DNA of 64,000 nt from assembly GCF_000026045.1 (NCBI RefSeq), contig NC_007426.1, positions 1,984,001 to 2,048,000 on the forward strand, in the 5' to 3' direction. The stretch is from Natronomonas pharaonis DSM 2160 (GTDB lineage Archaea > Halobacteriota > Halobacteria > Halobacteriales > Haloarculaceae). Position 1 is the stretch's first letter. Every line of letters starts with the position of its first letter. Below are positions 25,004-31,318 of the stretch, piece after piece. The notes beneath the pieces were generated by a model. The model made no database searches, was not told where the DNA came from, and saw only the letters and a program-made list of their open reading frames with translations. The translations under genes and the position numbers were made by a program.

Positions 25004-26125
25004 ATGGACGTAGCTAACTCAACGCTGGCCGCTTCGATACGGGAGCGACCGGGCACCGCCCTCGTTGGACTGTTCGGTGTCCTGCTCGCTGTCGACCTCG
25101 TCGCGAAGCTGGCCGGCGTACAGCTCGGGCCGATAGGCGGCCGGCTCTCTGTTGGCCGCTTTACCAGCGGTCTCACACAGGGCATCGTCATCGGCGTCAT
25201 CATCGGACTTGCCGGCATCGGCCTGTCGATGACGTACAGCATTCTGAACTTCGCGAACTTCTCGCACGGTGACCTCATCACCGTGGGCGCTTTCAGTGGC
25301 TGGGGCGTCGCGTATCTGATTTTGGGCTGGGGCATCGTCGCGACCGACCCCGAGTACGGAATCGGAACGCTGCTTCTCGTCCGCCGCCCCGGCGTCGGCT
25401 TTACTGAACTGGGCGCGAGCGTCCTGCTGTCACCGTGGGCCATCCTCGGCGGGCTCGTGGCAGCGGCAGTGATTACGGCGCTGCTCGCGCTCGCCATCGA
25501 CCGTGTTGTCTACAAGCCGATGCGAGACCGGAGCGGCATCTCCCTGCTCATCGTCTCTATCGGTGTGGCGCTCGTGCTCCGCTACGGCATCCAGTTCATC
25601 TACGGTCCCGGCACCCGACCGGTCACCTCCAGCGAACGGACGCTCGAACTGGGCGTTGCGTCCATCGACACCCACCTCGCAACCATCGTCGTCGTCGGCG
25701 TCGGGCTCATCATCGGAACGCACTACCTGCTCCAGCAGACGAAACTCGGGACGGCGATGCGGGCCATGTCCGACAACAAGGACCTCGCGCTCGTGACTGG
25801 CATCCCGACCGAGCGAACGATAACGTGGACGTGGCTCATCGGCGGCGGGCTGGCCGGCGCGAGTGGCTTCCTCTACATCCTGATTCAGACGCTGCAGTTC
25901 GACCGGGGCTGGCTGCTGTTGCTGCTCATCTTCGCTGCGGTTATCCTCGGTGGCATCGGCTCGATATACGGAGCCATCGCGGGCGGGCTCGTCATCGGTC
26001 TCGTCTTCCAGCTGTCGCCGATATGGGTCGGCAGCGACTTCAACTACGTCGCCGCCTACGCGATTATGATACTCGTGTTGCTGCTCCGGCCTGAAGGGCT
26101 GTTCAAGGGGGTGTCAACAGCATGA
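25004..26125 (+). CDS. livH: Branched-chain amino acid-type ABC transporter permease
   Basis: A 373-residue LivH-family permease with about eight to nine transmembrane helices. Signature pieces: GLAGIGLSMTYSILNFANFSHGDLITVGAF near the N-terminus and GLAGASGFLY and VILGGIGSIYGAIAGGLVIG near the C-terminus, the coupling loop region. It forms half of the membrane channel with LivM. Overlaps livM by ATGA. Substrate could be branched-chain amino acids, urea or amides; the family name alone does not settle this. Confidence 0.93.
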   Translation: MDVANSTLAASIRERPGTALVGLFGVLLAVDLVAKLAGVQLGPIGGRLSVGRFTSGLTQGIVIGVIIGLAGIGLSMTYSILNFANFSHGDLITVGAFSGWGVAYLILGWGIVATDPEYGIGTLLLVRRPGVGFTELGASVLLSPWAILGGLVAAAVITALLALAIDRVVYKPMRDRSGISLLIVSIGVALVLRYGIQFIYGPGTRPVTSSERTLELGVASIDTHLATIVVVGVGLIIGTHYLLQQTKLGTAMRAMSDNKDLALVTGIPTERTITWTWLIGGGLAGASGFLYILIQTLQFDRGWLLLLLIFAAVILGGIGSIYGAIAGGLVIGLVFQLSPIWVGSDFNYVAAYAIMILVLLLRPEGLFKGVSTA

Positions 26126-27429
26126 GCGACTCACTGCTCGGACGAATCGGCGGTGCGCTCGAAGAGCGGGACCTGCTGTTGGTCCTGTTGACGCTTGGAC
26201 TTGTCTACGTGCTGTTTGCGCTGTCGGTTCTCGACCAAGGGCTCGGAAGCATTGTCTCGACGCTGGCCCGAGTGACGTTCCTCTCGCTTTCCTTTGCGCT
26301 CGTCGCGCTGGCGCTGAATCTCCACTGGGGTTACACCGGCCTGTTCAACATCGGTGTCGTCGCGTTCATGATGGTCGGCGTCTACACGATGGCGATGCTG
26401 ACCCGGCCGCCGGACCCGGCCTTCGGCGCACCCGGTCTGGGGCTGCCGCTGTGGGTCGGCATCCTCGCCGGTGTCGCCGTAGCGGCTATCCTCGGCTTGC
26501 TCACCGCCCTGCCGGCGCTTCGGCTTCGGGCCGACTATCTCGCCATCGTCACGCTGGGGCTTTCCGAAATCGTCCGACTGACCATCGCGTCCGGTGACTT
26601 CAACGAGTGGCTCATCGAGAACGTCGGTGCCGGTACCGGCAGCGCGACGAGCCTGACCTTCACGGTCAGCCCACAGACGCCGATACGGGGGCTCTATTTC
26701 ACCGATGCCGGCGACCCGACGGCGCTTGGGACGGCCGTGTTCGGGGTCACAGACGACCTCGGCATCAGCCAGTCGGCGGTCGTCGACTGGACGTACATCC
26801 TGGCGCTGGCGGTGGTGCTCATCGCCGTCTATCTCTTCTTGGAGCGGCTCGGCCGCTCACCGTTTGGCCGGATTCTAAAAGCCATCAGAGAAGACGAGGT
26901 GGTCGCCAGCTCCCTCGGCAAGGATATCCGAATGGCGAAAATCAAGGTGTTTGTCATCGGCTGTGCGCTGATGGGGCTTGGCGGCATCCTCTGGTACGGA
27001 GCCGAGGGGGCGGCCAACCCACAGGCGATGACGTACTCGCCGCTGTACACCTTCTACATCTTCATCGCCGTCATCGTCGGCGGGGCCGGCTCCAACACCG
27101 GCAGCGTGCTTGGCGGCATCGTCTTTGCCAGCTTCCTCTTCGAGGGGCCACGTCGCGCTGGAGGGTTCGTCAGAGACCGTATCGCGGCTGATGTCGACAC
27201 GCCGGAGAACTTCGCTGAAGCGGTCGCACCGTTCAGCTCGCTCGATTTCACGCCGTTTATCGCCTACGCAACGGACGAGATTGCGGCGCTGCAGTTCGTG
27301 TTGCTCGGCCTCGTACTGATTTTCATCATGCACCGACGCCCGGACGGCCTCCTTGGCCACCGTGTCGAAACAGCATCGGCGGTTGACCTCTCAGAACGCC
27401 CCGAGACGGGGGGTGACGACAATGAGTGA
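26122..27429 (+). CDS. livM: Branched-chain amino acid-type ABC transporter permease
   Basis: A 435-residue LivM-family permease, the second membrane subunit. ALNLHWGYTGLFNIGVVAFMMVG, LRADYLAIVTLGLSEIVRL and GRILKAIREDEVVASSLGKD are typical. A large extra segment (NVGAGTGSATSLTFTVSPQTP, about residues 168-210) between helices lies outside, and the C-terminal region is extended and acidic. Start overlaps livH stop (ATGA); the end overlaps livG by eight bases. Confidence 0.93.
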   Translation: MSDSLLGRIGGALEERDLLLVLLTLGLVYVLFALSVLDQGLGSIVSTLARVTFLSLSFALVALALNLHWGYTGLFNIGVVAFMMVGVYTMAMLTRPPDPAFGAPGLGLPLWVGILAGVAVAAILGLLTALPALRLRADYLAIVTLGLSEIVRLTIASGDFNEWLIENVGAGTGSATSLTFTVSPQTPIRGLYFTDAGDPTALGTAVFGVTDDLGISQSAVVDWTYILALAVVLIAVYLFLERLGRSPFGRILKAIREDEVVASSLGKDIRMAKIKVFVIGCALMGLGGILWYGAEGAANPQAMTYSPLYTFYIFIAVIVGGAGSNTGSVLGGIVFASFLFEGPRRAGGFVRDRIAADVDTPENFAEAVAPFSSLDFTPFIAYATDEIAALQFVLLGLVLIFIMHRRPDGLLGHRVETASAVDLSERPETGGDDNE

Positions 27430-28279
27430 CGCACCGACTGCAGCCCCGCCGGAAGAACTCGGCGAAGTCGAAGACTCACCGACAGAACAGGCCGCCCAAG
27501 AGACGCCGCCGGGACTGCCGCTTCGGGTCAACAACCTCAAAAAAGAGTTCGGCGGTATCACCGCTGTGGACGGTGCCAGTTTCCAGGTTGAGGAGGGGAC
27601 ACTGACCGGCCTCATCGGTCCGAACGGGGCCGGCAAATCGACGACGTTCAACTGCATCACCGGCGTCCACAAGGCGACGAGTGGGCACATCCACTTCAAA
27701 GACGAGGAGATTACCGGCCTCGAACCGTACGAGATCGCTCAAAAAGGCCTCGTCAGGACGTTCCAGATAGCCAGAGAGCTCGAAGAGATGACCGTCCTCG
27801 AAAACCTCATGCTCGCGCCGAAAAACCAGCGTGGCGAGGCCATTTGGCGGTCGGTGACCCCCGGCGCGCGACGCGGCGTCATCGCGGAGGAAAAGGACGT
27901 CCGAAAGCGGGCCTGGGAGACGCTGGAGTTCTTCGAGATCGACCATCTTGCCCACGAGTACGCTGGTGGGCTTTCGGGCGGCCAACGGAAGCTGCTGGAG
28001 ATGGCACGGGCGCTGATGACCGACCCCGAGATGGTGCTGCTCGACGAACCGCTCGCCGGTGTCAATCCGACGCTCGAAGAGAAAATTCTCGACCGCATCC
28101 ACGAGCTCCGAGAGCAGGGCCAGACCTTCCTGCTCGTCGAACACGATATGGACGTTATCATGAACAACTGCGAGCACATCATCGTCATGCACCAAGGACA
28201 GGTCCTCGCTGAGGGGACAGCAGAGGACATCCGAGACAACGACCAGGTAATCGAGGCCTACTTGGGGGAGGACATATGA
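27422..28279 (+). CDS. livG: ABC transporter ATP-binding protein, LivG type
   Basis: A 285-residue ATPase. Walker A GPNGAGKSTT, Q-loop region, signature LSGGQRKLLEMARAL, Walker B MVLLDEPLAGVNP, and the H-loop VEHDMDVIMN. The start at ATG 27422 overlaps the livM stop by eight bases; the N-terminal 30 residues are an acidic Pro-rich extension before LRVNNLKKEFGG. An inserted, positively charged segment GEAIWRSVTPGARRGVI near residues 137-154 is normal for LivG. Stop overlaps livF (ATGA). Confidence 0.94.
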   Translation: MSDAPTAAPPEELGEVEDSPTEQAAQETPPGLPLRVNNLKKEFGGITAVDGASFQVEEGTLTGLIGPNGAGKSTTFNCITGVHKATSGHIHFKDEEITGLEPYEIAQKGLVRTFQIARELEEMTVLENLMLAPKNQRGEAIWRSVTPGARRGVIAEEKDVRKRAWETLEFFEIDHLAHEYAGGLSGGQRKLLEMARALMTDPEMVLLDEPLAGVNPTLEEKILDRIHELREQGQTFLLVEHDMDVIMNNCEHIIVMHQGQVLAEGTAEDIRDNDQVIEAYLGEDI

Positions 28280-29139
28280 GCGACGACGCGACCGTCGGCA
28301 CGGAGACGATGACGACCGAAGGCGAGAGCATCCTCGAAATTCGCTCGCTGGATGCCGGCTACGGCGACCTGCAGATTCTGAGTGATGTCGACCTCGATGT
28401 CGACGACGGCGAATACGTCACGATTGTCGGCCCGAACGGGGCCGGCAAGTCGACGGTGATGAAATCCGTTTTCGGCCTGACAACGCACATGGGCGGGACC
28501 GTCACCTTCGACGACGAAGAGATACAGGACCACTCGCCGGAGCGCATCATTCGGACCGGCATCGGGTTCGTTCCACAGACCGACAACGTCTTCGGCGGGC
28601 TGACGGTCCGGGAAAACCTCGAGATGGGTGCGTACATCCTCGAAGCAACACCCGCCGACCTCGCCGAGCAGTATCCCCGAACGGCCGGGCAGCTCTCGCA
28701 GTCGTCGCTGGAGTCGCTGTGCCGATGGGTACCGCTACATCGCGTGCTTGGCGACTCGGTCCCACAGGACCGCATCGACACCATCTACGACCGGTTCCCG
28801 ATACTCGAAGAGCGAAAGCACCAGAAGGCCGGAACACTCTCCGGCGGCCAGCGGCAGATGGTCGCGATGGGGCGGGCGCTGATGCTCGACCCCGACCTGC
28901 TGTTACTTGACGAGCCGTCGGCGGGGCTGGCCCCCGACCTCGTTGAGGACATGTTCGACCGCATCGACCGCATCAACGACGCCGGAACAGCCATTCTGAT
29001 GGTCGAGCAGAACGCCAAGGAGGCGCTGCGGCGCTGTGACCGCGGATACGTGCTTGTTGACGGGCAGAACCGCTACATGGACAGCGGCGACGCGCTGCTG
29101 GCGGACGACCAAGTCAGACAGGACTTCCTCGGCGGGTAA
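28276..29139 (+). CDS. livF: ABC transporter ATP-binding protein, LivF type with insertion
   Basis: A 287-residue ATPase. Walker A GPNGAGKSTV, signature LSGGQRQMVAMGRAL, Walker B LLLLDEPSAGLAP, H-loop VEQNAKEAL. Compared with ordinary LivF, where GAY is soon followed by the helix leading to YERFPRL, there are about 40 extra residues at about 124-164 (from ATPADLAEQYPRTAGQ to RVLGDSVPQ). The insertion is in the helical region that faces the permeases. Last gene of livHMGF, ended by a run of A's at 29138 that on the opposite strand serves as a T-rich terminator. Confidence 0.92.
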   Translation: MSDDATVGTETMTTEGESILEIRSLDAGYGDLQILSDVDLDVDDGEYVTIVGPNGAGKSTVMKSVFGLTTHMGGTVTFDDEEIQDHSPERIIRTGIGFVPQTDNVFGGLTVRENLEMGAYILEATPADLAEQYPRTAGQLSQSSLESLCRWVPLHRVLGDSVPQDRIDTIYDRFPILEERKHQKAGTLSGGQRQMVAMGRALMLDPDLLLLDEPSAGLAPDLVEDMFDRIDRINDAGTAILMVEQNAKEALRRCDRGYVLVDGQNRYMDSGDALLADDQVRQDFLGG

Positions 29140-29166: not shown

Positions 29167-30471
29167 TTACGTGTCGAGGACTTCAGCCCACTGGCTGGAG
29201 TAGGACGGCTGTTCCGGCTCGAAGGAGACCTGCTGGAAGACCTCACCGCCGAGGTCCTCAAAGCCGTTGACGTAGCTTGCTTCGAGCGCCTGCCCGTACT
29301 CGTCGTTGAGATACAGCGTCGCCGTGTTGTCGTGGCCGAGTCGGTCCATGACGACCTCCGCCATCACCGGACCCTGCAGGGCGTCGGAGGGTGCTGTTCG
29401 GAAGATGTAGCCGTCGTCATCAAGCTCGGTGACGCCAGGAGCCGTCGAAGCCGGCGAGATGCCGACCACGGAGTTGGGTACGTAGACCTCCGTGGAGACA
29501 GGGAAGTTCTGGTCGGAACCGGCCGGGCCGACGACCGCCGGGTAGCCGGCGTTGACGAGCGACTCCGCGCTGGAGATAGCCGCCGTTGGGTCGGTCTGTG
29601 TATCCTCGACGGACGTGTCAACAGACACGTTGAGGTCGGCATCGTTGATTTGTGTGGCAGCCAGCAGGGCACCGTCACGAATCGGGCCACCGAGCGGCCC
29701 GAGGTCTCCGGTCTCGGGCATCAACACGCCGACCATCGCCTCGAACTCATCGACACCAACCGGGTCCTCGGCAGTGACATCACCGATTTCGCCGGCCTCA
29801 AGTTCGAGGCTGTCGACGACTTCGAGTTGCCCGCCTTGGAAATCGACGATATCGTAGGCCGCAGAGACGATGTCGCCGTTTTCGTCGAAGTCAACGCTGG
29901 AGGACGCGCCCTGGTAGTTGATCGAGTCGCCGGCTGCGACCGTCTCGACGGCTTCGGGAAGTTCAGCCGGGCCGAACTCCTCGCCGTTGGGGTTGGCAAC
30001 GGTCGCCATTCGGTCCCGGATGGCCTCGCCGTCGTTTTCGCCGGCCGCAACCGCAGCCAGTACCGAAACGGCCATGGCGTCGTAGGCGTGGCTGGTGAAC
30101 ACGCTCGGTGCCTCGCCGTATTCGTCCTCGTAGCTGTCGGCGAAAAAGTCCGCTCCCGGACCGTCAGCCGCCGGCTCGGTGCCGATGACGTTGTCCATGT
30201 CGTTGTCGACATCGCCCGGGAGGTCGCTGTCGATGAGCCCATCCGGAACGATGATGTCAACATCGTAGTCGTCGGCGAACTCGCCGTAGTAGTCGCGGAA
30301 CAACTGGATGCCGGACTGTGGGAAGCCGACAACCATCACCGAGTCGGGCGTCTGAGCGACACCATCCCCGTTTCCGTTCCCGTTCCCGTTGCCGTTACAG
30401 CCAGCCAGCGCGACCATGCTCGCTGCGCCGGCGGCTTTCAATACGTTGCGTCGGTTGATGTGACGTGTCAT
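29167..30471 (-). CDS. Liv-type substrate-binding lipoprotein, circularly permuted
   Basis: A 434-residue lipoprotein: Tat-like RRNVLKAAG, lipobox VALAGC (Cys25), then a GN-rich spacer to about residue 37. What follows is out of order. Residues about 39-229 (SVMVVGFPQSGIQLFRDYY to FDENGDIVSAAYDI) are what normally form the second half of a type I binding protein and include the usual C-terminal end. Residues about 245-434 (VGVLMPETGDLGPLGGPIRDG to SSQWAEVLDT) are the normal N-terminal half and stop right where the first half would continue (AQTPDS). The reading frame is intact. It faces livHMGF, its likely transporter; the ligand is unknown. Confidence 0.9.
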   Translation of the reverse strand: MTRHINRRNVLKAAGAASMVALAGCNGNGNGNGNGDGVAQTPDSVMVVGFPQSGIQLFRDYYGEFADDYDVDIIVPDGLIDSDLPGDVDNDMDNVIGTEPAADGPGADFFADSYEDEYGEAPSVFTSHAYDAMAVSVLAAVAAGENDGEAIRDRMATVANPNGEEFGPAELPEAVETVAAGDSINYQGASSSVDFDENGDIVSAAYDIVDFQGGQLEVVDSLELEAGEIGDVTAEDPVGVDEFEAMVGVLMPETGDLGPLGGPIRDGALLAATQINDADLNVSVDTSVEDTQTDPTAAISSAESLVNAGYPAVVGPAGSDQNFPVSTEVYVPNSVVGISPASTAPGVTELDDDGYIFRTAPSDALQGPVMAEVVMDRLGHDNTATLYLNDEYGQALEASYVNGFEDLGGEVFQQVSFEPEQPSYSSQWAEVLDT

Positions 30472-30556: not shown

Positions 30557-31318
30557 CTACCGGGCGAACTCGACGTCGGTGTTTTCCTCACGACACGTCT
30601 CAAGCGCATGCTTTGCTGCCATCCCGGCGGCCTGAGCGGTTCGGTCGAGGCCGACACCGACTTTCAGCTCGACGCCGACGGTTTCGTTGACGTGCTCGAT
30701 GGCGTCGAGATATGCTGCCTCGTCGATACCGTCACAGACTGCGATGATATTGTCGCCGCCGACGAAGAACGACAGCGAGTCGTTCTCGTGGCGCATATAC
30801 CGCATCAACTCGGCGTAGCCCTGTTCGATGTTGATAAACGAGTCGAACTCGTTGAGCTGGTCTGTATACTTGCCCGTCGCATCGTTGACATCGAAATGAG
30901 CGATTTGTACGTCGGTGTCGGTCCGCTCGGACGGCTGAATCGGGTCGCCACGAAGGATTTCAGTGCGGCCCTTGTCCTGTGCGCTGCCGGCATCCTGTAG
31001 CTGGTCGGTCGCGGTGCCGAGCGCCGCGGCTGGCGACGAATCAACGCCGATGCTCAGGCTCACCGTCACGGGGTACCGGTTGCCAACGGATTCCTGAATC
31101 AGCGCGTGAGCGTCGGCATCGAGGCCGTTCGTAACCGCCACCATATTGTCGAAACGGGTAAAGAAAACATAGCCCATCCGGTTGCCGATAAGCTGAGAGA
31201 GGTCGGCGTAGAGCCGCGATTGCAGGGTCTGTAAGTCGACTTCGCGGCGCGGTTCGGGGGTGACAGTCCACGGACCGTAGTTGTCTATCTGAACGAGCGT
31301 TACCTGTGTGTTCGTCAC
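30557..31318 (-). CDS. GTP cyclohydrolase III (arCH3 type)
   Basis: A 253-residue enzyme that opens the GTP ring to a formamidopyrimidine, an early step of archaeal flavin (riboflavin/F420) synthesis. It has two related halves with cyclase-like cores, MGYVFFTRFDNMVAVTNG and NDSLSFFVGGDNIIAVCDG, and VTVSLSIGVDSSP / VELKVGVGLDRTAQ. The frame is open upstream to 31486, but GTG 31318 gives the family start TNTQVTLVQIDNYGPWT, with a TATA-like box at 31341-31348, 26 nt upstream. Confidence 0.93.
   Translation of the reverse strand: MTNTQVTLVQIDNYGPWTVTPEPRREVDLQTLQSRLYADLSQLIGNRMGYVFFTRFDNMVAVTNGLDADAHALIQESVGNRYPVTVSLSIGVDSSPAAALGTATDQLQDAGSAQDKGRTEILRGDPIQPSERTDTDVQIAHFDVNDATGKYTDQLNEFDSFINIEQGYAELMRYMRHENDSLSFFVGGDNIIAVCDGIDEAAYLDAIEHVNETVGVELKVGVGLDRTAQAAGMAAKHALETCREENTDVEFAR

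Follow-up and report, generated by a model that had tools for sequence, protein, structure and literature searches.

A Liv-type binding lipoprotein of Natronomonas pharaonis with its halves in swapped order, a circular permutation that apparently recurred in haloarchaea

How does a binding lipoprotein come to carry its two halves in the reverse of their usual order, and did this happen only once? We examined this question in a window of 64,000 nucleotides from Natronomonas pharaonis DSM 2160 (by the window we mean the whole stretch of DNA that was analysed), in which an intact frame at 29167-30471, on the minus strand, encodes a lipoprotein of 434 aa with a Tat signal and a lipobox. Our answer is that this is a Liv-type, lipid-anchored binding protein, a natural permutant of a kind that has arisen at least three times independently, a reading to which we give a probability of roughly 0.86. 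The swapped order, its conservation, the synteny, the polyphyly and the purifying selection are observed in it, and the fold, the binding function and the duplication route are inferred. The parts of the protein, in the order in which they are read, are the following:

30397..30471, minus strand: Tat-type signal peptide and lipobox, residues 1-25, LAGC with Cys25 (sequence)
30349..30396, minus strand: flexible stem, Gly/Asn-rich, residues 26-41 (sequence comparison; pLDDT <50 for residues 1-34)
29797..30348, minus strand: half A, the old C-terminal half of a Liv-type binding protein, residues 42-225, now first (Pfam, PDB, half-specific HMMs, model)
29746..29796, minus strand: closing linker from the old C-terminus to the old N-terminus, residues 226-242, AGEIGDVTAEDPVGVDE (sequence comparison)
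29170..29745, minus strand: half B, the old N-terminal half, residues 243-434, now last (Pfam, PDB, half-specific HMMs, model)

The match of PF10518 (TAT_signal) to residues 4-24 of the leader is weak and stays under the cut-off of that family. In this protein the stem is followed by the old C-terminal half, and in ordinary homologues by the old N-terminal half. The closing linker is directly followed by FEAMVGVLM, which resembles MSFEAKVGVLM in the ordinary stem of the homologue L018, and the chain ends two residues past the helix SSQWAEVL, the end of half B.

The order of the halves can be read from the PF13458 profile. In the Pfam search, the protein scored 118.9 bits for a cut-off of 31.7, in two stretches, the better of which aligns residues 247-431 with profile positions 4-186 (E 5e-34). 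In a profile search of its own genome, positions 188-311 come first in the window gene, on the N-terminal side, and positions 4-186 come second, in one frame and with both pieces above the cut-off, while each of the other seven PF13458 genes gives a single ordinary stretch. The collinear N- to C-terminal order of the family is not met by the window protein. The same is found with the PDB structure 3td9, in which residues 247-428 align with 19-197 of the chain and residues 100-165 with 264-329, that is, in swapped order, whereas our control L018, an ordinary haloarchaeal homologue, aligns in one stretch (71-385 with 17-329). The swapped match to 3td9, the straight passage of L018 through it and the profile order in the genome therefore make the swap real. 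The protein has what defines a natural circular permutant, namely homologous but swapped segments, old ends that are joined and new ends that lie elsewhere, and the view that it is one, with signal peptide and lipobox kept, is supported. The first-pass annotation, made from the sequence alone, had proposed the intact frame, the Tat/lipobox leader with Cys25 and the swapped mature halves, and all of this holds; the boundaries it had drawn (39-229, ~230-244 for the linker, and 245-434) lie within a few residues of ours.

From 49 permuted rows, AlphaFold2 predicted one confident fold (mean pLDDT 86.8, pTM 0.84) with disorder only at residues 1-34. In this model, the new N-terminus lies ahead of strand 44-48, the new C-terminus comes after helix 425-432, and the linker 226-242 runs between strands 215-225 and 243-251. 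The two-lobed alpha/beta fold is met, although as a prediction only. Foldseek aligned the model with LivJ/LivK-type structures over ~190 residues only (~2 A, TM-score ~0.5 by target length); since Foldseek keeps the chain order, such a half-only alignment is expected for a permutant.

An assembly or cloning artefact would give a swapped order as well. No evidence in support of it was found, and it is hardly credible, already refuted by the many independent assemblies, single-contig chromosomes among them, that have the same order. Indeed, a full-length collinear (permuted) protein is present in 17 of 60 related genomes, the window's own included, and in a scan of one genome per species (84,980 species) the best 80 loci are all haloarchaeal and all permuted. 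Within the order, the permuted form is found in about 159 of 392 genomes (table rows with E <1e-90) and the ordinary-order protein in 115 of the 392 (E <1e-115 to L018), some genomes having both. We sorted 174 non-redundant proteins with half-specific HMMs into three layouts: P1 (stem-A-linker-B, the window type; 117 proteins), ordinary (stem-B-A; 53) and P2 (stem-B2-A-linker-B1; 4). With 117 non-redundant P1 sequences, the swapped order is therefore no product of chance. Permuted and ordinary orthologues are 50-65% identical. The first-pass annotation had named a structure prediction and a search for the same order in relatives as checks, and it passes both, the halves making one closed (predicted) fold and permuted homologues being found at full length in many haloarchaea; none of the outcomes that it had set beforehand as refuting (ordinary-order homologues throughout, an artefact, an unclosed fold) occurred.

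The permuted genes are under purifying selection, with a median dN/dS of 0.20 in the window clade and of 0.16 in the other permuted genes. Five residues are invariant among the permuted proteins, S319, T343, D363 and Y392 in half B and D77 in half A, and, to judge from the alignment of the ordinary form, the segments around them correspond to those that contact the ligand in solved homologues; their equivalents in E. coli LivJ have a ligand role. The selection, these residues in both halves and the conserved pairing with livFGMH all speak against decay or a new role in which the protein would have ceased to serve the Liv transporter. Such a loss is very improbable, even if function is inferred only and the lipobox cysteine is absent from three P1 proteins of clade II (see below), L008, L059 and L065. 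These three (in L065, the second copy) keep a Tat-like leader without the cysteine, and their anchoring may be different or absent.

The neighbours of the gene in the window are the following:

25004..26125, plus strand: livH-type permease gene, in the facing operon (PF02653; synteny)
26122..27429, plus strand: livM-type permease gene (PF02653)
27422..28279, plus strand: livG-type ATPase gene, start codon uncertain (PF00005, PF12399)
28276..29139, plus strand: livF-type ATPase gene (PF00005)
30557..31318, minus strand: GTP cyclohydrolase III gene, start codon inferred (PF05165; synteny)

A gap of 27 bases separates the end of the livF-type gene from the convergent binding-protein gene, and in other haloarchaea, as in the window, the permuted gene usually faces a livHMGF operon. 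GTP cyclohydrolase III is conserved as the neighbour upstream at permuted and ordinary loci alike (L039, L065, L216-L218, L221, L223 and others), and the arrangement of the window is matched exactly in L216, which is ordinary in order and sister to the window clade. All three layouts, ordinary, P1 and P2, occupy one locus, facing livFGMH and often with GTP cyclohydrolase III upstream; thus, the permutation happened in situ. We infer, without any binding or transport data, that the window protein is the lipid-anchored substrate-binding protein of the facing LivHMGF importer for branched-chain or related amino acids. Separately, the LivF-type ATPase of the window (28276-29139, plus strand) has an apparent insertion of ~40 residues around EATPADLAEQYPRTAGQLSQSSLESLCRWVPLHRVLGDSVPQD, judged against the usual LivF sequence.

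More distant ordinary homologues place the root of the family in the ordinary order, and the question becomes how often this order was changed. In a binding-protein tree built from re-ordered proteins, clade I, which comprises the window, Halorubrum and others, has the ordinary L018 as its sister (100/97) and lies within ordinary forms; clade II (most genera, P2 included) is sister to the ordinary L147/L150; and clades III (Haloarcula and its kin) and IV (Actinarchaeum) are placed elsewhere. The permuted forms are united in 0 of 200 bootstrap trees, and the AU test on this tree rejects a single branch that would set them all apart (p 9.2e-6) as well as the union of clades I and II (p 1.5e-4). 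A separate tree of the LivF, LivG, LivM and LivH proteins, which is an independent data set, shows the same polyphyly, and here the AU test rejects all permuted loci together (p 3.4e-11) and again I+II, but not III+IV. The AU tests also reject I+III+IV, and II+III+IV (p 8e-4). All sub-groupings other than that of all permuted forms were picked after the tree was seen. The scattered clades and the AU rejections therefore call for at least three independent changes of order, and we conclude that there were at least three in situ permutations, in the window/Halorubrum clade, in the large mixed clade, and in Haloarcula and its relatives; clades III and IV may have one origin. A single clade of permuted forms was considered and is ruled out by the AU tests on both trees.

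The polyphyly would be only apparent if a single early haloarchaeal permutation had been followed by a return to the old order, or by gene conversion from ordinary paralogues. The same loop is cut in all P1 clades, and this identity does count against multiple origins, being simpler under one. We nevertheless find a single permutation improbable: the linked transporter genes, which a binding-protein paralogue cannot convert, show the same polyphyly; half A alone and half B alone each put clade I with the ordinary L018; the linkers are clade-specific, and that of the window clade retains a motif of its ordinary sister; and a reversion would amount to a repeated exact re-permutation. The conversion of one half only is ruled out by the agreement of both halves on the placement of clade I.

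The P1 cut always falls in a short helix-strand loop of three residues (..VL / PD..), and the linker differs by clade: ..DPVGVDSF.. in I, NPDGAGPSAD..PGG in II, IPQPEPNGSGS in III and GGSDGGGGSDSIPGS in IV. The clade I linker runs into SFEA-VGVLMPETGDLG, which is also the stem end of the ordinary L018 and thus a fossil of the old N-terminus. P2 is a second circular permutation, found at this locus in the same gene, and its opening follows helix 1 of the first lobe. Its members (L020/L212, L023/L214, L024/L213 and L025) belong to three relatives of the window's genus and to one further family member. The A-linker-B1 part of P2 is ~70% identical to the P1 proteins of clade II, with which it shares the linker motif NPxGxGPSAD...PG...GR; on this ground, P2 is the same closed ring as in clade II, opened at another place. 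The recurrence of one loop in P1 may mean that the tether is tolerated in few loops, or that an anchor on the second lobe is favoured by selection. Permutation may even be easy and recurrent in haloarchaea, with at least four events at one loop and a re-permutation besides, all driven by selection on the tether site (lobe 2 and not lobe 1), but this is a tentative idea. Microhomology between the stem DNA and the cut-site loop was tried as a source of the recurrent cut and showed no enrichment (mean percentile 0.56 in 43 ordinary genes).

In our preferred reading, that of at least three independent permutations, a linker came to connect the old ends of an ordinary chain (stem, half B, half A), and the ring so formed was opened in the second lobe, at the loop that follows the last helix of half B and precedes the first strand of half A. 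The ligand cleft and the two-lobed fold are predicted to be kept, and the membrane tether now enters the second lobe. In terms of DNA, the gene would have been duplicated in tandem, fused in frame across the old ends and then stripped of its redundant outer halves. We infer that this duplication route is likely the one that fits best, because there are tandem unfused P1 copies, old-stem residues in the linker, and two openings that share a linker. Permutation by duplication is known from saposin/swaposin and DNA methyltransferases (review PMC3320104). The haloarchaeal case is like these in its closed and reopened chain, its tandem gene copies and its two cuts with one linker, but it is unlike them in that no fused intermediate has been seen and that orthologues at one conserved locus were repeatedly cut at the same place. 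No fused A-B-A or B-A-B dimer was found among the loci scanned with half-specific HMMs, and the fused tandem intermediate that would establish the route is missing, with only unfused tandem copies at hand. In Haladaptatus (L065, L072, L081, L086, L089), two diverged permuted genes stand in tandem at the livFGMH locus.

The other main route, according to the same review (PMC3320104), is fission and fusion, in which the ordinary gene is split into adjacent half-genes that are later joined in the other order. The halves are compact enough for this, and a distant paralogue in G038 (C1:79363-80460) looks split, with a B half and an A half in separate frames (250 + 179 aa; a frameshift is not excluded). 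However, separate halves occur in no close relative seen, residues of the old N-terminal stem persist in the linker, and P2, which combines the clade II linker with a different cut, follows more readily from a tandem fused dimer, which leaves fission and fusion unlikely, though not to be dismissed.

The kind of protein is already known. For Tp0684 (TpMglB-2) of Treponema pallidum, a type I binding lipoprotein, crystallography has proven the circular permutation, and the group to which it belongs has been named 'Type Ic / Cluster Bc' ligand-binding proteins (PMC4990184). It is like the window protein in being a type I (cluster B) two-lobed permuted lipoprotein with a tethered N-terminus and homologues of the same order, but it belongs to the sugar-binding MglB family, its permuted part is just 13% identical to the ordinary form, and only the first three N-lobe strands were moved, with a fourth hinge crossing added (PMC4990184). 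The window protein does not have the Type Ic / Cluster Bc cut; it is cut in the second lobe, where half B (profile 4-186) meets half A (188-311). Thus cut, family and taxa differ, and in haloarchaea, unlike Treponema, the identity to ordinary orthologues is 50-65%, either form can be found at the one locus, and the change is recurrent. With LivJ/LivK and HAAT-type proteins (3td9, 4gnr, 4n0q, 2liv; PF13458), the window protein shares the homology of both halves, the same predicted fold and the liv operon context; what differs is the order of the halves, the new linker and the anchor on the other lobe. Our literature search, which left out most subscription papers, found no description of a permuted haloarchaeal binding protein or of a recurrent permutation of orthologues. 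The novelty that the first-pass annotation had claimed stands for haloarchaea in this sense; the rarity does not, as the form is common there, and TpMglB-2 came earlier. The main novelty is the recurrent, independent permutation of an orthologous gene. BLAST, Pfam and sequential structure search give only partial matches to such proteins, so more permutants may be hidden.

Natural circular permutations are usually inferred from isolated, ancient pairs. In the present case, the ordinary and the permuted order alternate among orthologues of a single locus with preserved neighbours, and this makes the origin, the mechanism and the consequence of a permutation directly open to study, the recurrent reshuffling being a natural experiment on the re-wiring of a protein without loss of function. 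The authors of the TpMglB-2 work saw in permutation a possible way of fitting tethered binding proteins to their anchor (PMC4990184), and the repeated move of the anchor between lobes in haloarchaea makes this idea testable.
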